From Synechococcus sp. WH 7803 (GTDB lineage: Bacteria > Cyanobacteriota > Cyanobacteriia > PCC-6307 > Cyanobiaceae), in NCBI GenBank assembly GCA_000063505.1, contig CT971583.1, positions 2,077,918 to 2,141,917 on the forward strand: DNA of 64,000 nt, given 5' to 3'. Shown one piece after another: positions 11,997-44,219 of the stretch. Under the pieces are notes generated by a model, which searched no databases, was not told the DNA's origin, and worked only from the letters and a program-made list of their open reading frames with translations. Position 1 is the stretch's first letter. The number at the start of each line of letters is the position of its first letter. The translations under genes were made by a program, and so were the position numbers.

Positions 11997-12071
11997 GGAG
12001 TACCTCTTCGAAGACAGTGAGGGCTAACTTCAGAACAGGTTAACCGGCAACCTCTGAAAAATCATGCTGCT

Positions 12072-13706
12072 TCAACGATCGGAGTCGAACGAGCTCTGAG
12101 CCCTACGCAGAATTGATGTGAGCCCCAACTCAGACAAAGGATTACCAACTTGTTGAATCAGGTTTGAATCCTCTGCAAAGGAGAGCCCGCTGGCCCGCGA
12201 AAGATTAACAAGAGCAAGATTGTAATTGGAAAGCTGTGAAATATACGACTCAACAGCTTGCGTCAAATCCTGCTGCGACTGAACAACATCAGTAATGGTT
12301 CCGTAGCCTGCATTGAAACGAAGTGATTGCAGCTTTAAAGCAGTTGATGCTGCTTGAACTCTTTGAGACGCCACGATGACAGCCTCGCGACCTTCGACGG
12401 ACTCAGAAAAGTACTCTCTGACCTCTTCAATCACAGAATTGATTGATTGCTGCGCCGCAGCTTGAGCTGATTTTGCACGCTTGCGAGAGGCGGAGGCATC
12501 CATACGGGCGCGTCCACCATCAAATCCAGTCAACGTCACTTGAATGACGGATTCGGAATTCCAAAGGTCACTGCGACCCGTTTCAATGATCCAGGGAGAA
12601 CCAGAACTCGGAAAACCTAAATTCTTAGTCCAATAGAGAGAATTGACAAGTTCAATTGTAGGCCGATAAATAGCTAAATCAATCTGAGCCTGCAATTCAT
12701 TTTGCTGAGCAATCGAAAGATTCTTGACAATAATCTGACGATAGTCGAGAGCTGATTCGATCGTTTTATCAAGAGACTCCTGCCAAGAGCCCAGTGGACT
12801 GAGTGCTTCGCTGGGCTTGATCGTGCTTGCTTTTGGATCATTCAGCAACGCAGCAAGCTCAGCCTGCGCAACCATCGAGTCACTTTTCGAATTAACGAGA
12901 TTAACCTGATCAGTTCTCAAGACCGTTAACTGCTTGGCTACATCAAGCTCGGATGAAACGCCAAGTTTTTTTCTTGATTTAGCAAGATTGAGAAGCAACA
13001 AATCATTCTCAACAAGCTGCTCACTCGTCAGGATGGAGGCCAGAAACTTCTGCAAGCGTACGTAAGCTTGTTGCGTTTGCAACGCGTAGTCGCGGCGTGA
13101 AATGATGTAATCACTGCCCGCTTCTTTCACGAGATACTTACCTTTCCAGATCTGAGGCTGCCGAGCCGGGTCATAGATCTTCCAGTTCAAATCAAGTGTT
13201 TGAACTCCCTGAAGGAAACTGCTCGTGTAAGATCGCGCGAATAAATAGGAGGGCAATTCACTCGCAGAAGCGCCATACTCAGAATAGATTGAAGTGTCAA
13301 TTCCACTGTTTGCGCCAGCATAATTGTAATAAGAATTTTGATTATAATTACCAAAATTGAAGTTAAAACTTAAAACTGGCCACCACGTCGCAAAATCAGA
13401 GCCCAAGGAATCTTGCGCAGCCTTGAATGACTGAAGATTTTCAAGAATGACGGGATTTCTCTCTTCAGCCAAGCGAACAGCTGTTGGCATGTCGAGACTT
13501 TTCAGAGTCTCCTCGGGTATGGACGCTGGCTGGGGCTGAGGCAACTGACGGCTCACTGGCCAAGACTTCGTTATCGCCTCAATGGAGGCAGCAGATGGAC
13601 GCTCATCGTCGGCACGAACAATGTCGGTGTTTAAGCCCTCGCACAGAAGCACTCCTGCACTAATTGCGGACAGATAAGCGATTAGCTTTAAACGTAAAAG
13701 TCTCAT
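12072..13706 (-). CDS. TolC-family outer membrane efflux protein
   Basis: 544 residues with an N-terminal signal sequence (about residues 1-25). Two long helical repeats follow, with the alternating small/polar heptads typical of TolC. The C-terminal repeat contains LKLQSLRFNAGYGTITDVVQSQQDL, matching the conserved RY.aG..t..dvl.aq..L pattern. It should form the outer-membrane channel for an ABC or RND exporter; the devBCA operon 5 kb away is one candidate partner. The start codon overlaps the crtB stop by 4 bases. Codon use is AT-rich. Confidence 0.85.
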   Translation of the reverse strand: MRLLRLKLIAYLSAISAGVLLCEGLNTDIVRADDERPSAASIEAITKSWPVSRQLPQPQPASIPEETLKSLDMPTAVRLAEERNPVILENLQSFKAAQDSLGSDFATWWPVLSFNFNFGNYNQNSYYNYAGANSGIDTSIYSEYGASASELPSYLFARSYTSSFLQGVQTLDLNWKIYDPARQPQIWKGKYLVKEAGSDYIISRRDYALQTQQAYVRLQKFLASILTSEQLVENDLLLLNLAKSRKKLGVSSELDVAKQLTVLRTDQVNLVNSKSDSMVAQAELAALLNDPKASTIKPSEALSPLGSWQESLDKTIESALDYRQIIVKNLSIAQQNELQAQIDLAIYRPTIELVNSLYWTKNLGFPSSGSPWIIETGRSDLWNSESVIQVTLTGFDGGRARMDASASRKRAKSAQAAAQQSINSVIEEVREYFSESVEGREAVIVASQRVQAASTALKLQSLRFNAGYGTITDVVQSQQDLTQAVESYISQLSNYNLALVNLSRASGLSFAEDSNLIQQVGNPLSELGLTSILRRAQSSFDSDR

Positions 13707-14650
13707 TTTGATTGCGAGAGAATGAACGAAAGCGGCAAGTCAATTAATTTGCGATATCGCGGAACAAAGGCACGATAGTTGAAGACATCATAATCATTGT
13801 CTTCAATTCTCGATAGAATTCCACGATACAGTCGCAAGGAAGTCCAAACAGGCCAGCGAGCATCGGGTGCCAGAAAACGCACTCCAGATTCAGAGCGCTT
13901 GAACCACTCTCGCGCACGATGGATCTGAAAAGCCATCAACTTTCGCCATTGATCATTCAAGACACCGTCAAGGAGCTCTGCCTCGGAGTAGCCAAAGTCA
14001 TTAATTTCATCCATTGGCAAATAAATTCTGCCTCGCTGGCGATCTTCACCAACATCGCGAAGAATATTAGTGAGTTGATTGGCAATACCCAATGCAACGG
14101 CCGCCCCAGACGTCTCTGCTTCTTCACTCCAAGGTGCCGAGGTGTAAGAATCATCAATTCCCATCACCTGCTCAGACATCAAACCAACAGTGCCTGCAAC
14201 GCGATAACAATACAATTGAAGGTCTGAAAAAGTCTTATAGCGCAGATTAGTTAGATCCATGCGCATGCCCTCGATCATGTCGAGATAGGGCTGAAGCGGC
14301 TGAGAATAACGTTGAATTGTATCCACCATGACTTTGTCAAGCCATGTCTCAATATGACCTTTAAACATTGCTCGAGTGTGCAGCTCCCAAGCATCTAATT
14401 CATCCAACAATTGTTCTTTTGGCTTAGAGAGAGCCTCAGTGCTATCCATAATTTCGTCTGTGCGTCTGCACCAGACGTAAATCGCCCAGATTGCTTGCCG
14501 TTTCTCCAGCGGCATCAGCATTGTGCCGAGGTAAAAGGTTTTGGCCCATTCTTCGGTTTCTGCGCGACAGCGCTCGAAAGCCTCCTTCAAAGAAAGAGGG
14601 GTGGTCTCAGGCACAACCGAAGAGAGAGATGAGGTAACACCCATCGTCAA
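13703..14650 (-). CDS. crtB: 15-cis-phytoene synthase
   Basis: 315 residues. The two Asp-rich prenyl-diphosphate binding sites are intact: RRTDEIMD in the N-terminal half and DVGEDRQRGRIYLP after it. RYKTF and YCYRVAGTVG are also conserved. The enzyme condenses two geranylgeranyl diphosphates to phytoene, the first step of carotenoid synthesis. In cyanobacteria crtB normally follows crtP directly. Here 4.1 kb of signalling genes separate them, and crtB overlaps the preceding regulator by 4 bases and the following TolC gene by 4 bases. One 60-base line counted by hand (14041-14100) is 43% GC, well below the neighbouring crtP. Confidence 0.93.
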   Translation of the reverse strand: MTMGVTSSLSSVVPETTPLSLKEAFERCRAETEEWAKTFYLGTMLMPLEKRQAIWAIYVWCRRTDEIMDSTEALSKPKEQLLDELDAWELHTRAMFKGHIETWLDKVMVDTIQRYSQPLQPYLDMIEGMRMDLTNLRYKTFSDLQLYCYRVAGTVGLMSEQVMGIDDSYTSAPWSEEAETSGAAVALGIANQLTNILRDVGEDRQRGRIYLPMDEINDFGYSEAELLDGVLNDQWRKLMAFQIHRAREWFKRSESGVRFLAPDARWPVWTSLRLYRGILSRIEDNDYDVFNYRAFVPRYRKLIDLPLSFILSQSK

Positions 14651-15681
14651 GCACCCAGCTGCTGACGCCGTTGGCGCATCAACCGCGCACGGTCGGAGAG
14701 GGACTGGAAAGCAGGATCGCTGGTGATGGCCTTGACCTGCGAAACAACGGATTGACGGCTGATCTTAACCTCTAGCTTCTGGATTGTCACATGCAGCGCT
14801 GTGTCATTGTCGACTAGCACTGACGCAATCTCAGACACATGGCTGAGCAAGCGCGTCACGTTGGGATCATGGCTGGACGTAGCCGACAATTGACTGATCA
14901 CTGACTGCGCTTGATCAATTTGAGCGCGTACACGTGATTGCGCCTCCTTAAGGTTCTCGTAAAGCGTTAAGTCGTCGTCATAACGGAATTTCTTTTCCAG
15001 TGATGAGTCAACCCGTGCTCGCAGCAATGTGAGGTTGCAGGGCTTCGGCAAGTAATCATCAGCGCCACAATCAATACAACGGATCACCACATCGATATCA
15101 TCCAATCCAGAGATCATGATCACTGGAATCATAGAGAATTGATCATTGGCTTTTAAATACTCCAAGACCTGTTCTCCATTGAGGCGAGGCATCTGCACAT
15201 CTAAAAGAATCAGATCGAATGGCTTCTCTTTAACACTACTCACCGCGATCTCACCATCTTCAGCCGTTGAAACGACGTGGCCTTGCCGTGATAGTGCAGC
15301 AACAAGCAAATCTCGATTGCTTGCATTGTCATCAACCACCAATACCCTTCCTTTTCGACCAGCCAGACGATCTGACTGGCGCAAATGCTCTTTGTTAGTG
15401 TGATTAGTTTTGAGCTGAACGACAGAACCTGACGACTTTTCTTCTGTCGAAGAGTGCTTTTCAGCTTTTAATTCCTGAGGTGTTAATCGGCTGCGGATCA
15501 TCTCCAACAAAACAAGTGCGGAGTCCTTAATCTTAGATAGGTCTTCTGTCGCGAGATCTTCTCCTGCTTCCAGTTCTTCAGTTAAAAGCTCGCTATAACC
15601 AACAATTTGGTTGATCGGATTATAAAGGTCGTGGCGTAGGAGCCTTAGATTTGTTTCTTCAGAAATGGAATGATCTGACAT
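14647..15681 (-). CDS. histidine-kinase-like dimerisation domain fused to a receiver, no ATPase domain
   Basis: 344 residues. Residues 11-65 resemble a HisKA dimerisation domain with the phospho-acceptor box RHDLYNPINQIVGYSELL (H17). No HATPase domain follows. A linker of about 45 residues leads to a full receiver (about 111-230) with D117/D118, phospho-acceptor D161 (LILLDVQMP) and K213 (LPKP). A coiled-coil tail (about 235-344) follows. The design suggests a phosphotransfer or phosphatase protein acting with the kinase encoded upstream. Its start shares one base with the preceding receiver gene stop (TAATG), and its stop overlaps the crtB start by 4 bases. Confidence 0.8.
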   Translation of the reverse strand: MSDHSISEETNLRLLRHDLYNPINQIVGYSELLTEELEAGEDLATEDLSKIKDSALVLLEMIRSRLTPQELKAEKHSSTEEKSSGSVVQLKTNHTNKEHLRQSDRLAGRKGRVLVVDDNASNRDLLVAALSRQGHVVSTAEDGEIAVSSVKEKPFDLILLDVQMPRLNGEQVLEYLKANDQFSMIPVIMISGLDDIDVVIRCIDCGADDYLPKPCNLTLLRARVDSSLEKKFRYDDDLTLYENLKEAQSRVRAQIDQAQSVISQLSATSSHDPNVTRLLSHVSEIASVLVDNDTALHVTIQKLEVKISRQSVVSQVKAITSDPAFQSLSDRARLMRQRRQQLGA

Positions 15682-16055
15682 TATGAAGCACTCCTTTCCA
15701 ACAGGTTGTTGATTTTCTCAAGCAAACGGGGTAAATCGATTGGCTTGGTATCAAAATCATCACACCCAGCACTGAGGCAGGCTTCACGGTCTTGCATCAT
15801 GGCGTGAGCCGTCAGCGCAATGACTGGGATAGCTTGGGTTTGGGGATCATCTTTTAATCGTCGCGTTGCATCGAATCCATCGATCACTGGCAAACCGATG
15901 TCCATCAAAATCAAATCAGGCTGCAGCGCATTGGCACGTTCGATGGCAGCAGCGCCATCGAACGCCATCTCAACTGTAAAACCCTTACGAGTGAGCCGAC
16001 GCGACAGCATATCGCGGTTCAACTCGTTGTCTTCAACCAGCAAGATCACTGTCAT
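15681..16055 (-). CDS. single-domain response regulator (CheY/DivK type)
   Basis: 124 residues, a lone receiver domain: acidic pair ED (residues 8-9), phospho-acceptor D52 in LILMDIGLP, switch Thr in ALTAHA and K104 in FDTKPID. There is no output domain, so it probably passes phosphate or binds a target protein. The pattern [20 protein letters not shown] is typical of receivers paired with hybrid kinases. It overlaps the kinase gene by 4 bases upstream and the next gene by 1 base. Confidence 0.9.
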
Positions 16056-18727
16056 GGTGTCGATGGTACCTCGGTCGAGAGCGTGATGAGTTCTTCAATA
16101 ACAGAGATAAGCACATGAACACTATCATTGGTTAATGGAAGCCAACGCGTACCTACCGCATCCAACCTTGTGAGAACATCAAGCGATAAATTGTTTGAAG
16201 AAATAGCAACAAGCGGCAATTCTCGTGCGTTGTAATGTTTGCGGATGCGCTCAATCATCAACATTGTTGGCTCAAGGCGGTAAGTCATATCCACGATCAT
16301 GAGATGTGGACAGTGCTTTAAAACAGATGCCTCCATTGCGCCTGGTTCCTGCTCGATCGTGAGCTGGCATGGAATATTTTCAAGCGACTCAAGCTTTTCT
16401 TGAATCTTCAAACCGAGATCAGAGCAATTTTGCAGCAAGGCGATATCTAAATGATTCGCCTTGTGGCTGATGCTCACACGATTTAAAATTGACTCCAATC
16501 GATCCCAATCGATCGGTTTCTGTAAGCAACCAGCGGCACCGAGCATCGCTGACAATTTCTGCGTGTCATCCCGGCTGACAACCACAACCGGCAATGAAGA
16601 TAACTTTCGATCACTCTTTACCATTGCAAGAACATTCCATTCATCTGATCTTGACGTATTGATATCTACGATCAAAGCATCAGGCTGAATGCTGACGATC
16701 GACTCGAAACCAGCTTCTCCGTTGGGAACACCAAAAACCTCAAAATTATTTTTTTTCAAAAAACGCTTAATCAAATCCATGGAATCTTGATCATCATCAG
16801 CAACGACAATTTTTCCACGGCTTACTGATGAGGAACTAGTCTCAGCACTTTGCGAGCTACCTTGAGTTTGCTCTGTAGAAGCATGGGTATCGGAGGTCTC
16901 TTCAGAGACTTCAGATGATGCATAACGTGGGAGAATCATCGTAAAGGTGCTACCCACACCTAACGAACTTTGTACACTGATATCACCACCCATTAAGCGA
17001 CTGAGTTTCCTACTCAGGGACAAGCCAAGTCCAGTACCTCCATATTGGCGTGTTGTACTTGCATCTGCTTGACTAAAATCACTAAACAACTTTGCTTGCT
17101 GTTTCTCTGACATCCCGATTCCAGTATCGATGACTGAGAACGAAACCTGAGGAATACCAGCTTCAGAGTTCAAAAGCCTGCAAGACAAGCGTACTGAACC
17201 GTTCTCAGTGAACTTACAAGCATTACCGATAAGATTGATAAGAGACTGACGCACCTTTGTAACATCCAGAAAAGCCATATCATCATCTCGAGAAGGTCTC
17301 TCACAAACAAATTGATTCTTATTTTTTTGAGCAAGAGGCTCAGCCGTCGCGCACACATCATCTAAAACTTTATTAATCGAAAAACTTTCATTGTAAACAG
17401 TCATTTTTCCAGCCTCGATTTTCGAAAGATCAAGAACGCCATTGATCAATCCCAAAAGATGACGTCCCGAGGACAATATTTTTTCCAGGTCAACAACAAA
17501 ATCGCTCGGCTCTAACTCCTCTGACTCTTCGATCAGCATTTCGCTGTAGCCAATAATCGCATTCATCGGTGTACGGAGCTCATGGCTCATATTCGCCAAA
17601 AACTCACTTTTTGCCTTACTCGCTAGGAATGCTGTTTTCTTTGCTCGGTGGGCGCGCATACTTTGATGTTCTGCCTCGAGACGGAGCTTCTCCGCCTCAA
17701 GTAACGTCATTTTCAGTCGCCTCTCGAAAAACACAGTAACCAAAATTACCAGTAACAAAATAAGAGTGATTGGCGCCATCGATACAAAAACAATGCGAGC
17801 AGCCAAATCATTAATTTCAGATACTTTAGAGCCAACATAAATCTGAAAGCCCCAGCGCTCGAATGGATACTGTTGTATCTCAAATCCATCAACCAGCATC
17901 TGCTGATTGTTGCTTTGCCTTGATTGATCAATAATGGATTGAATCTTTTCACGCGGCTTACCGACCGTGAGGTAGACAATGTCCCCTTTATCGTCAACAA
18001 GAGTCAGAAATCCAAGAGATCCAACCGCTGATGTTTGGATCACTTGCCCAACATCGCGAAGCTCCTCCAAGGGATAACCGACCCCCACAGCGCCAATAAC
18101 ATTGTTTTTACGATCTTCAATTGGTTTATATTGAGTGATGTAAGGCCTGCCAAATAGATATTCAATCCCGTAGGATTCTTTACCCTGCAGCAGCAGAGGT
18201 TTTACCTTTCCGTCTATATTTAGAACTGTTCCTTGCGCCAATTCACCACTCTGCTTACGCACAGTTGTTTTGACGCGAACAAACTCTCCGTTTCGAATCA
18301 GGAATAATGTTGCCTGAGCACCGAGACTGTCATCGAGCATGTCAAAGACTCGGTCCACTCTCTGAGAAGAACCATCCTCGAACTCCTTCAACGAATCAAG
18401 AATTAACTCACGCGACTGTTCGTCAGACCGCGGCGAAGCGGTTTGACCATCACTCAACGTGGCAAAGATAAAACTAATGTCAGCTTCTGTAAGACTCCGG
18501 TAGAAAGAGTCAACCAGATCAAGCTGTGCTGCTGTTGAGCGAATGAGTTGATCGGTTCTTTCCAGAAAATATTGTTGCGTGCGTTCGCGCAAGCGCACAT
18601 AGGTATAACCAACCGATCCAACGATGAGTGTAGCAACAACTAAAATCCAGGTTCGCGACAAACGCTGAACACGCTCGGAACGGGATTCCGAGGTTCCAAG
18701 CAAACGTTGCTTAATGGCTTTCAGCAT
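16052..18727 (-). CDS. membrane-bound hybrid histidine kinase with Cache-like sensor and two C-terminal receivers
   Basis: 891 residues. Membrane spans lie at about 27-46 and 311-334, enclosing a periplasmic domain of about 265 residues with Cache features ([36 protein letters not shown]). A coiled coil (340-370) follows, then HisKA with H382 in SHELRTP, HATPase (N502 box, [17 protein letters not shown]), a Ser/Thr-rich linker (603-636), and a receiver with D688 and K737. A last receiver-like domain (about 757-885, D813) lacks the usual acidic pair and Lys, so it looks degenerate. It begins 5 bases after the crtP stop. A hand count of one line (17701-17760) gives 37% GC. Confidence 0.9.
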
Positions 18728-39448: not shown

Positions 39449-40444
39449 GTGGAGCTCCTGCCCCGACGCCAACAGGAAGTGCTGCAGGCCACGGTCCATC
39501 ACTACGTGGACACGATTGAACCGGTAGGCAGCAAAACCCTCGTTCAGCGTTTCGGGCTTCAGGCGAGCTCAGCCACGGTGCGTTCGGCGATGGGAGCTCT
39601 GGAGCAAAAAGGCCTGCTGGTGCAGCCCCATCCATCCGCCGGTCGAATTCCCAGTCCAAGGGGGTACCGCCACTACGTGGACTGCTTGCTGCCCAAGCCT
39701 GGAGCCGCAGTTCACCACCTTGAGCAGGAACTCACCCAACTGAGCTTGCGCTGGGCTGCACTCGATGATCTCCTGCAGCAGCTGACACGGCGCTTAACCG
39801 ATTTCACAGGGTTGATGAGCCTGATCACCCTGCCGCAACCGTCAGAGCAACGGCTGCACGCGATTCGCCTGGTCCCCACGGATGAAAGGCTTTTGGTGAT
39901 GCTGGTGGCTGATTCCAGCCAAACCCATCACCTCAATCTGCGTTTGCCTCACGGCAGTGTCCATCAGGTGGCGGCCCTTGAGCGCTGGACCGATGATCAA
40001 CTGCATCAGTCCGGACAGATCAGCTGGGAGTCGTTACCGCAGCAGCTGCAAACCTGTGGACAGGCACTGAGGGAAGCCCTTCACAACGAAGAAGGTCGAT
40101 TCATCAGCCCAAGTGATCAGAGCGCTCACGTTCATGGCGTGTCCAGACTGGTGGCACAACCGGAGTTCAGCGACAGCACCAAGGTGGCCCCGCTCCTCGA
40201 TCTGATGGATTGCAACCCCGCCGCCTTCATCCCCAGCGGTCCCGGTCATGATGACTGGGTTTGGATCGGCGGGGAGCATCCCCATACGGCTCTGAGCGAC
40301 TGTTCTGTGATCCAATCGAGTTATCGGGATGGACAAGGAGGTGTGGGGCAAGTGGCTCTTGTGGGCCCAATGCGCATGGCTTACGCCACGGCACGTGCTG
40401 CCGTTCAATGTGTTGCGAAACACCTCAATCATCTTCTGAGCTGA
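39449..40444 (+). CDS. hrcA: heat-inducible transcription repressor HrcA
   Basis: 331 residues from GTG. The winged-helix start is RRQQEVLQATVHHYVDTIEPVGSKTL, followed by SSATVRSAMGALEQKGLLVQPHPSAGRIPSPRGYRHYVD, a clear HrcA signature. HrcA binds CIRCE operators upstream of groESL. I saw no CIRCE (TTAGCACTC-N9-GAGTGCTAA) in this window. The stop is followed directly by the GTG of the binding-protein gene. Confidence 0.9.
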   Translation: MELLPRRQQEVLQATVHHYVDTIEPVGSKTLVQRFGLQASSATVRSAMGALEQKGLLVQPHPSAGRIPSPRGYRHYVDCLLPKPGAAVHHLEQELTQLSLRWAALDDLLQQLTRRLTDFTGLMSLITLPQPSEQRLHAIRLVPTDERLLVMLVADSSQTHHLNLRLPHGSVHQVAALERWTDDQLHQSGQISWESLPQQLQTCGQALREALHNEEGRFISPSDQSAHVHGVSRLVAQPEFSDSTKVAPLLDLMDCNPAAFIPSGPGHDDWVWIGGEHPHTALSDCSVIQSSYRDGQGGVGQVALVGPMRMAYATARAAVQCVAKHLNHLLS

Positions 40445-41671
40445 GTGACAAGCCCCAGGCCATCTCGCCATCTCCCTCGGGCCCTGATGTGGTCTGCAGG
40501 AATCACAATGCTGGCCTTGGGGCTTTGGGCTGGAACAACCTTCCACGCCAAACGCTCGACCTTGATTGCTCCTAAAGGAGACAACGTTGATCCAAGCAGA
40601 AAGAACGCGGTCGCGACATCAAACATCAACTCACTGCTGAACGAGCAACCAAAGCCCTACATTTTCGCTCAGTCACTCCCACTAACAGGCCCTGCTGCAC
40701 ACCTGGGCAAGAGCTACAGCAGGGGGATCGATGCCGCGCTTCGCGAGATCAATCAGGCTGGTGGAATCAACGGACGCCCTGTAAAAATCTGGCGCTTGGA
40801 TGATGGCTATGAACCCAATTTGACCATCACCAATACAGCACTGTTCACGAAGCAACCTGAGGTGCTGGGTCTTTTCGGGTACGTGGGGACTCCCACAACC
40901 AAAGCCATCCTCAACGCAGCGAGCAAGGCCAAGCTTCCCATCATCGCGCCGATGACAGGGGCTAGCGCACTACGACAGCCGCAACAGGGCAATCTTGTGC
41001 ACTACCGCTCCAGTTACGCCCAAGAAGCCAATCGCATTGTCAACCACCTCATCAACGACGGATATGTGCGCATCGCCATCGCCTACCAGAACGACGCCTA
41101 CGGGAAGGACGTCCTGGCCAGCCTGAGATCAGCCTTACGACGCCATGGGCTCAAACCAGCGAGCACGGTTCCGCTACCGAGAAACTCCACCCGTGTCAGT
41201 GCAGCGGCACTCAGCCTCGACCGAAGCAATCCAGACGCGCTCGTGGTGATTTCCACCAGTCAAACCATGAGCGCCGTCGTTTCCAACCTGCATCGCATGG
41301 GCAGCCATCCCCAGCTGATGACCATTTCCTTCATCGGAACGAAAGCACTGTTCGACGACCTTCCCCAGAGTGCGTCCTACGGAATCGGCGTCACCCAAGT
41401 GGTTCCTTTCCCTTGGGATCGTCGCCAACCCGATGTGAAGCGCTACCAAAAAACATTACAAGCACAAAGTGACCAGCCTGATTTTGATTTCGTCAGCCTT
41501 GAGGGCTTCCTCGCGGCTGAATGGCTGATCAACGCACTAAAAAATTTAGGTCCACAGCCCACCAGATCAGCTCTGATGAAGGAACTTAAACGCACATCAC
41601 CGGTTCAAAACAGGCGAGGAAGTCAGAACGTGGATCTCGTGTTTCTCGGCAGCGGCCCTTGGCAACCTTAA
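40445..41671 (+). CDS. orphan type 1 periplasmic solute-binding protein (LivK/amide-binding type)
   Basis: 408 residues. An N-terminal hydrophobic segment (about residues 12-30) is a signal or anchor. The body has the PBP type 1 features: AQSLPLTGPAAHLGKSYSRGIDAALREINQAGGINGRPVKIW, then LGLFGYVGTPTTKAIL and PIIAPMTGAS. It resembles branched-chain amino acid, urea or amide binders. No permease or ATPase genes flank it. It immediately follows hrcA (adjacent stop and GTG) and ends 17 bases from the convergent ion-channel-like gene. The ligand cannot be told from sequence. Confidence 0.82.
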   Translation: MTSPRPSRHLPRALMWSAGITMLALGLWAGTTFHAKRSTLIAPKGDNVDPSRKNAVATSNINSLLNEQPKPYIFAQSLPLTGPAAHLGKSYSRGIDAALREINQAGGINGRPVKIWRLDDGYEPNLTITNTALFTKQPEVLGLFGYVGTPTTKAILNAASKAKLPIIAPMTGASALRQPQQGNLVHYRSSYAQEANRIVNHLINDGYVRIAIAYQNDAYGKDVLASLRSALRRHGLKPASTVPLPRNSTRVSAAALSLDRSNPDALVVISTSQTMSAVVSNLHRMGSHPQLMTISFIGTKALFDDLPQSASYGIGVTQVVPFPWDRRQPDVKRYQKTLQAQSDQPDFDFVSLEGFLAAEWLINALKNLGPQPTRSALMKELKRTSPVQNRRGSQNVDLVFLGSGPWQP

Positions 41672-41688
41672 AACCCTCCTGATAACTC

Positions 41689-42912
41689 CTAAGTCAACGT
41701 CCAGGTCACCAGCGAAACCCCAACCAGAATTGAAAGTGAGAGCGAAGGCCAGATCTGCTCTAAAAACAACTCTCTACGCAACAACAGCCGACGGAGATCA
41801 GGGTCTTGTGCATTAGCAGCTCGACGCTTGAGGGCTTCGAGGTAGAGCACCAGCCCGAAACTTACAAACGACGTGAGATAAGCGATCACATACACACTAT
41901 CCATAAACGTAAGATACGAAAGATCTGGCAAATCCGCCTTGTAACCCTCCTGCAAAAATATCAACGTTAAAAGCACTGCAACAGGAATTTCTATTCGGAA
42001 TTCAGTCATCACACGCGTGATCAAAATGACGGATGCCATCACAATGATCAACGGCTGAATCAAGGTCCAGAAGGCCGACCAACTCGATCGCTGATAAGAG
42101 GAATCAAAGATCAGCTGACTAAACTCATTATCCTCAGAGCTGAACCCCAAACCCGAGGAAAAATGGTGTCGATACTCTCCGATAGACCACCCTCGAGAGA
42201 GCCATCCAGGGAGCGACGAATACAACCCTAAACCGCTGTCGCGGAGATCAGGGATGAGTCGCAAATTCTCAAAGACCAGATCTCCGAAAGGATCTTCAGC
42301 CTCAAGAACGATGGGAAGACTGACCGAATTAAACGGAAAACGACGCAAATCCAAGGTATCAATATAAAACTGACCCGTGTAAACAAATCCCTGGGAAAAC
42401 ATCCCTTGCCCGAGCTTACGCGCCTCGCGAAGAGGCGTAATCGCAGTGGTTTCAGGATTAATATCATTCTCGAAACTAATCACCTCTTCAATACTCAGTT
42501 CTCGCTCAGAAAGGTACTCTTGAAATGCTTGATCCCACTGCATCCATAGGTAGCCCTTGCTTGAAAAAGCGGGAATCTCAAGATCAACATCAAAATTATT
42601 GGCCACGTAAACGCCTGCATACACCTTGTACGGAGCTTTTTCCAGAAGCGCTGCATCCCGCTTCACCTCAAGGCCCTGAAGCGGCTTACCCCGAGAGGCC
42701 ACACCAGAAGCTTCATTCACAATATGTGGCGTACTGGTGAGGCGCAGAATCTCTCTTGATTGAACAATATCGGTCGACTCATAACCCAGGAATCGACCAA
42801 GCAAAATCATTGAAATTGCCACCACAATCAGCAACAGCACGTTCCAACGTTTTTGACGCTGGTCTGGGAGCCGCGTGAGAAAAGGGCGCAGACGGTTAAC
42901 GATGCGCTTCAT
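41689..42912 (-). CDS. pentameric ligand-gated ion channel homologue (Cys-loop type, prokaryotic)
   Basis: 407 residues from ATG 42912 (GTG 42918 is also in frame). A signal anchor lies at about residues 24-44. The extracellular beta-sandwich (about 90-265) contains KVYAGVYVANNFDVDLEI, GYLWMQW and DLRRFPFNSVSLPIVLE, the pLGIC counterpart of the F/YP-x-D loop; the two loop cysteines are absent, as in GLIC and ELIC. Four membrane spans follow: TM1 with the conserved Pro (WTLIQPLIIV), TM2, a loop and TM3 with LPDLSYLTFMDSVYVI, which fits the pLGIC pattern well, and TM4 at the C-terminus. A channel is expected; ion selectivity and ligand are unknown. Confidence 0.75.
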   Translation of the reverse strand: MKRIVNRLRPFLTRLPDQRQKRWNVLLLIVVAISMILLGRFLGYESTDIVQSREILRLTSTPHIVNEASGVASRGKPLQGLEVKRDAALLEKAPYKVYAGVYVANNFDVDLEIPAFSSKGYLWMQWDQAFQEYLSERELSIEEVISFENDINPETTAITPLREARKLGQGMFSQGFVYTGQFYIDTLDLRRFPFNSVSLPIVLEAEDPFGDLVFENLRLIPDLRDSGLGLYSSLPGWLSRGWSIGEYRHHFSSGLGFSSEDNEFSQLIFDSSYQRSSWSAFWTLIQPLIIVMASVILITRVMTEFRIEIPVAVLLTLIFLQEGYKADLPDLSYLTFMDSVYVIAYLTSFVSFGLVLYLEALKRRAANAQDPDLRRLLLRRELFLEQIWPSLSLSILVGVSLVTWTLT

Positions 42913-42968: not shown

Positions 42969-44219
42969 TCAGAGGGCATCTCCGAGACGTTCTGCCACGG
43001 TGTTGACATCCTTGTCGCCTCGACCTGAACAATTGAGAACCACTTCCGTTCCTGCGGAGAGTGTGGGGCAAAGCGTTTCCAGCCAGGCGAAGGCATGGGC
43101 CGTTTCCAGAGCAGGAATAATCCCTTCCAGCCGACTCACCAGCTGCAGGGCTTCCAGCGCCTCGGCATCGGTGACAGCACCATATTCAGCTCGCCCGATC
43201 TCACGCAGGTAGCTGTGCTCAGGGCCGACACCTGGATAGTCCAGACCGGCACTGATGGAATGCGCTTCCTGCACCTGACCGTCCTGGTCTTGCAGGAGGA
43301 GACTCATCGCTCCGTGCAGCACGCCCACCCGTCCTTCGGTGATGGTGGCGGCATGGCGTCCGGTTGCGACGCCGTCACCAGCGGCTTCCACACCAATCAG
43401 ACGCACATCGGTGCACTCAACAAAGGGGTGGAACAGGCCCATCGCATTCGATCCCCCACCGACGCAGGCCATCAACACGTCGGGCAGACGCCCAAACGCC
43501 TCCCGGCACTGCTGCCGGGTTTCCTGACCGATCACCGCGTGAAAGTCACGCACCAGCATGGGATAAGGATGGGGACCCGCCACAGATCCAAGGATGTAGT
43601 GCGTGGTCTCCACATTGGTGACCCAGTCACGGATCGCCTCACTGGTGGCGTCTTTGAGGGTGGCGGTCCCCGCCGTCACCGGGTGAACGGTGGCACCGAG
43701 GAGGCGCATCCGGAACACGTTCAAAGCCTGTCGGCGCATGTCTTCAGCGCCCATGTACACCACACACTCCAGGCCGAAGCGGGCACAAACGGTGGCGGTG
43801 GCCACACCATGCTGGCCAGCACCGGTTTCGGCGATCACCCGCTTCTTACCCATCCGCAGAGCCAGAAGGGCCTGCCCAAGAGCGTTATTGATCTTGTGGG
43901 CACCGGTGTGATTCAAGTCTTCCCGCTTCAGCCAGATGCGGGGACCACCGTCGGCACGGCGGTAGTGCTCCGTGAGCCGTTCCGCTTCGTAAAGCGGTGT
44001 AGCCCGGCCGACGTAGCTCTTCAGCAGCCGATTGAGTTCCGCGGTGAACGCAGGATCTTTCCAGGCCTGAGCAGCCGCTTGCTCCAGCTCGGCCAATGCC
44101 GGCATCAGTGTTTCTGGGACGTACTGACCGCCGTAACGACCAAAACGGCCAGCAGCCGCTGGACGCGAACTGACGGCGAGATCGGAGGCAGAGGGTTGCG
44201 AGGGCAAGGTGCTGGTCAC
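42969..44219 (-). CDS. trpB: tryptophan synthase beta chain
   Basis: 416 residues. [14 protein letters not shown] at the start, the PLP lysine in [28 protein letters not shown], and the phosphate loop in [13 protein letters not shown] are all standard for TrpB. It joins indole and serine. No trpA is adjacent. A long antisense reading frame (43095-44249) is a shadow of this gene. Confidence 0.95.

Follow-up and report, generated by a model that had tools for sequence, protein, structure and literature searches.

The genome of Synechococcus sp. WH 7803 (G000) is a single contig of 2,366,980 bases, and the window analyzed here is a stretch of 64,000 nucleotides from it. Within the window, a gene for a periplasmic solute-binding protein (SBP1) and a gene for a pLGIC homologue converge on each other. 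The features of this locus, in window coordinates, are:

39449..40444, + strand: hrcA-like flanking gene, outside the pair and used as a locus marker (named from sequence; same flank in five relatives)
40445..41671, + strand: SBP1, stand-alone type-1 periplasmic solute-binding protein, 408 aa, GTG start (Peripla_BP_6 E 2.1e-50; PDB 4kv7; AF2 model)
41672..41688, no strand: interval of 17 bases, stop codon to stop codon, between the convergent genes (sequence)
41689..42912, - strand: pLGIC homologue, 407 aa from ATG (phmmer, AF2, structure alignment, 80-row alignment)
42969..44219, - strand: trpB-like flanking gene, outside the pair and used as a locus marker (named from sequence; same flank in five relatives)

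The reading frame of SBP1 starts 0 bp after that of the hrcA-like gene, and an upstream GTG is an alternative start for the channel gene, giving a protein of 409 aa. The first-pass annotation had described a type 1 solute-binding protein and a channel homologue at 40445-42912, convergent and seventeen bases apart; the two reading frames, the spacing between their stop codons and the class of the binding protein (Peripla_BP_6, E 2e-50) were all as described. No permease gene adjoins SBP1 at the locus. In another part of the window, positions 12001-18000 have a G+C content of 0.44-0.48, compared to about 0.51-0.67 elsewhere in the window, and are possibly an acquired region.

SBP1 has the two-lobed type-1 periplasmic binding fold (Peripla_BP_6). 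Its nearest solved protein is PDB entry 4kv7 (E 4e-43), which was also the best fold match of the AF2 model of SBP1 (TM(target) 0.79). This entry is annotated as a possible Leu/Ile/Val-binding protein. The ligand of SBP1 may be of an amino-acid- or organic-acid-like class.

A phmmer comparison of the channel protein with the sequences in the PDB matched ELIC (E 8e-6) and GLIC (E about 1e-4). The NCBIfam model LGIC_1 was matched at E 4.5e-6, under the family cut-off, and the Pfam search gave no relevant family match, a miss that does not exclude membership of the pLGICs. The AlphaFold2 model, built from an alignment of 80 rows (pLDDT 85.5, pTM 0.79), consists of an N-terminal helix (residues 18-46), a beta-sandwich (95-275) and helices at 277-298, 308-325, 336-367 and 371-406, which is the pLGIC arrangement of an extracellular beta-sandwich followed by four transmembrane helices. 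The top Foldseek matches of the model were sTeLIC, GLIC and ELIC. Alignment of the structures with VIA-align gave Z 22.6 for GLIC (rmsd 3.0 over 283 residues), 21.9 for the alpha7 nicotinic receptor, and 21.4 for both DeCLIC (6v4a) and ELIC. The structure-prediction check that the first-pass annotation had proposed thus came out in favor of the pLGIC fold. The predicted extracellular domain is complete and is related to ligand-binding ones.

The residues of note in the channel are Pro193 in loop 7, Pro287 in TM1, Glu304 at -2', Arg306 at 0' and Leu315 at 9'. The proline of loop 7 (at the tip between beta6 and beta7) and that of TM1 are present in all 80 alignment rows, as are an acidic residue (D/E) at -2', arginine at 0' and leucine at 9'; the acidic ring at -2'/-1' ahead of the basic 0' position is therefore in place. 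The proline of the beta6-beta7 loop is described as the most conserved position (PMC4795631). The protein holds no cysteine, and with it the cysteine pair of the animal-type Cys-loop receptors is missing, so that the earlier assignment to the Cys-loop family does not apply in the literal sense; the channel is a Cys-less "Pro-loop" pLGIC homologue. The layout proposed for it stood with respect to the beta-sandwich, the TM1 proline and the four C-terminal helices, but it had left out an additional N-terminal hydrophobic helix (residues 18-46; five in total), which is a signal peptide or an anchor.

In its fold over residues 91-407, in the loop-7 and TM1 prolines, in the acidic -2' residue and in the hydrophobic residue at 9', the channel is like GLIC, ELIC and sTeLIC. 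It is unlike them in its sequence (about 20% identity or less), in the helix and extension ahead of beta-1, and in having a recurrent periplasmic binding-protein partner gene. An acidic -2' position is established as going together with cation selectivity in GLIC and the nicotinic receptors; by analogy with GLIC, the channel would be homopentameric and cation-selective. The possibility that it is a mobile-element or phage gene was rejected, as tblastn against phage and plasmid collections gave no match.

We surveyed 400 genomes of the host's family. Channels of this kind had been called scattered in bacteria; within this family they are common, being carried by 125 of the 400 genomes. The SBP1 family was taken as the 73 high-scoring places of at least 181 bits, the other matches reaching 78 bits at most. 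A channel gene lies within about 410 bp of 57 of these places (51 divergent, 6 convergent), and direct reading of the contigs placed two more beside broken or partial channel frames, for a total of 59/73 adjoining a pLGIC. The co-occurrence of the two genes in other genomes, on which the first-pass annotation had made its reading depend, is thereby established. A further 12 places (11 genes) are followed, in the same direction, by a Bestrophin-like gene (PF14023). The last two are at contig ends, one of them being half of an already-paired gene, and every place with readable flanks has a pLGIC or a Bestrophin-like neighbor. The SBP1 clade ahead of the Bestrophin-like gene (L095, L176-L183, L208, L209) is a separate one, and most of its loci also have a PstS-like gene.

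Of the 48 channels with the best scores, 44 have SBP1 as a neighbor. Three of the exceptions (G008, G011 and G027) are in genomes without SBP1, and the fourth (G114) has none beside the channel, because of which some channels of this group may work alone. The non-identical pairs number 45 and fall into eight sets by shared flanking genes. A mirror-tree comparison of channel and SBP1 distances gave r 0.95, a value to which the common history of the species contributes in part. Three genomes (G012, G020 and G030) contain a convergent pair as well as a divergent one. In G013 (L096, G013:C1:1850000-1868000), remnants of both SBP1 and channel are found between hrcA and trpB; both genes were therefore lost together there. 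The pairing is near-obligate and occurs in several gene orders and contexts. Chance neighborhood is ruled out by the 59 places and their flanking contexts, of which there are at least eight.

One pair of the cyanobacterial type (L112) was found in a metagenome bin titled Bifidobacterium breve, which is probably mislabelled or contaminated. Other pLGIC subfamilies were also seen, many with housekeeping-like neighbors (DnaJ, FtsW/MurG, GloB, trypsin-like), and these were not used as evidence. Another pLGIC subfamily (L187, L188, L189, L190, L195) is found in a same-strand cluster of about 7 kb (for example, L190:816-6232) with a PLP decarboxylase, a dCache-like protein and an MFS transporter. 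The decarboxylase of L190 scores above the NCBIfam cut-off for histidine decarboxylase, and synthesis, export and sensing of an amine beside the channel are a possible reading of this cluster.

A second pLGIC of the host genome, with about 28% identity to the first, is paired as well. Its gene and the gene for SBP2, a UrtA-like binding protein, overlap by 4 bp (L066:7123-9554; G000:C1 about 602-604.5 kb), according to the coordinates of the reading frames. SBP2 matches both the urea-binding UrtA (7s6e, E 2e-109) and AmiC (E 3e-42). Relative to the NCBIfam UrtA cut-off (TIGR03407, 492.75 bits), the marine SBP2 falls below at 437 and one Myxococcota copy lies above at 516. The ligand of SBP2 would be urea- or amide-like. 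Myxococcota/Deltaproteobacteria, Gammaproteobacteria and Verrucomicrobiota have the opposite gene order, SBP2 preceding the channel, and the two genes are -8 to 51 bases apart there. There are 27 non-identical SBP2-channel pairs, in 16 flanking contexts and several phyla; they are close operons, many with 4-bp overlaps, in both gene orders. The scanned neighbors of these pairs are diverse, with no importer permease among them.

No permease of the LivH/LivM/UrtB/UrtC type (BPD_transp_2) was found in the host genome (12 of 14 control genomes were positive), nor in G006 and G010; urease alpha is likewise missing from all three. For permeases of this class, the remark of the first-pass annotation that the binding protein comes without permease genes extends from the immediate neighborhood to the entire genome. 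SBP1 and SBP2, each beside a pLGIC, account for all strong Peripla_BP_6 matches of the host; a third match (648454-649149) is weak at 32.8 bits, with no channel seen at its locus. An ABC importer of the branched-chain-amino-acid/urea class is not encoded in the genome, and neither binding protein therefore feeds an importer of its own class. It could still be argued that SBP1 belongs, as an orphan subunit, to an ABC importer with its genes at another place, and that it lies beside the channel incidentally. The PDB relatives of SBP1 are indeed annotated as importer subunits, and it has been proposed that orphan urtA genes make use of other importers (PMC8786288). Against this, the class-matched importer is rejected in the host genome by the missing permease, and all SBP1-family places with readable flanks have a pLGIC or Bestrophin-like neighbor. 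We regard this explanation as highly improbable.

The gene-level link between SBP1 and the channel is strong, and the recurrence of the pairing suggests a binding protein that signals the presence of its ligand to the channel. We consider it likely that SBP1 serves a pLGIC cation channel as its sensor subunit in the periplasm, the two making up one chemosensory unit. SBP1 would bind a small solute in the periplasm, and the closed, liganded protein would act on the extracellular domain of a homopentameric, cation-selective pLGIC in the inner membrane, opening or closing its pore. A ligand in the periplasm would in this manner give rise to cation influx, felt as depolarization or as a Na+/Ca2+ signal. 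The proposal of a sensing system made from a binding protein and a channel gains support from the pairing at 59 of 73 places, the missing permease and the second SBP-pLGIC pair; the docking of SBP1 on the channel, and the direction of its effect, we infer. Against the proposal stand the channels without an SBP1 neighbor and the many other pLGIC subfamilies whose neighbors look like housekeeping genes. A gene for a Na/Ca exchanger (PF01699, Na_Ca_ex) comes directly 3' of SBP1 in six marine genomes, on the same strand and within about 80 bases. The order of SBP1 and then exchanger is found at loci L086-L090, L092 and L212. An exchanger would fit the removal of the cation admitted by the channel, a hint of a link to Ca2+.

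The same gene pairs could come about in other ways. SBP1 might serve as a concentrator, capturing the ligand and passing it to the orthosteric site of the channel, so that gating would be by free ligand and not by docking. The complete extracellular domain of the model, with its ligand-binding relatives, is consistent with such a hand-off, and a role of this kind was suggested for fused or operonic binding domains (PMC549065); no observation here tells hand-off from docking. We hold this to be unlikely, though worth keeping in mind. It is also conceivable, at a still lower probability, that the two genes share one response, for example to osmotic or nutrient stress, and are regulated and inherited together without contact between the proteins, SBP1 signaling by other means. 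The SBP1 pairs are convergent or divergent, not one operon or transcript, and divergent genes share a promoter region, both of which suit co-regulation. However, six of the pairs are convergent and have no common promoter, and the SBP2 genes form tight operons with their channels in either order, the ends of many of these pairs overlapping.

A soluble periplasmic binding protein can report to a membrane receptor and not to a transporter, as MalE does to Tar, LuxP to LuxQ and TorT to TorS. The sensor-subunit reading of SBP1 shares this arrangement; the output in those systems is a kinase or a chemoreceptor, whereas here it would be an ion channel. DeCLIC has the pLGIC core in common with our channel, and also, as an idea, the accessory periplasmic module acting on the channel. 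In DeCLIC the module is fused at the N-terminus, whereas the candidate module here is a separate type-1 SBP. SBP2 is like UrtA and AmiC in sequence and unlike them in forming a two-gene operon with a pLGIC and not with UrtBCDE. Tasneem et al. (2004, PMC549065) described bacterial ART-LGICs fused to PBP-I, or accompanied by operonic genes for stand-alone PBP-II or Cache proteins, and proposed a role in sensing; the cyanobacterial channels were listed there as simple. The present pairs share with these the association of a pLGIC with a binding-protein-type sensor. They differ in that the type-1 SBP is stand-alone, in that two SBP families are involved across many genomes, and in the lack of a matching importer. 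In the open-access literature searched, PMC549065 was the only paper found to deal with SBP-pLGIC gene pairs, and none described the pairing of a pLGIC with a type-1 SBP that is a separate protein. Fusions and operons of pLGICs with binding proteins have been known since 2004; what is new is a type-1 SBP that stands alone beside the channel, the repeated occurrence of this pair, and the lack of a permease.

These pairs may exemplify a general prokaryotic class of "SBP-gated ion channels", in which a separate type-1 SBP gives ligand recognition to a pLGIC (or, in one SBP1 clade, to a Bestrophin-like membrane protein). The class would include the UrtA-pLGIC operon, sensing urea or an amide in strains without a urea importer or urease. 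We judge the case for such a class to be evenly balanced. In the literature consulted for comparison, the cellular role of bacterial pLGICs has so far rested on prediction. A partner that is near-obligate and whose class is known offers a concrete and testable answer, namely that a periplasmic SBP may gate bacterial pLGICs, and it would be a two-component parallel to the animal receptors that join binding-protein domains with channels. Orphan urtA genes occur in some marine Synechococcus, and their interacting partners have been called unresolved (PMC8786288); for the orphan urtA genes of picocyanobacteria, the pLGIC is a possible partner.
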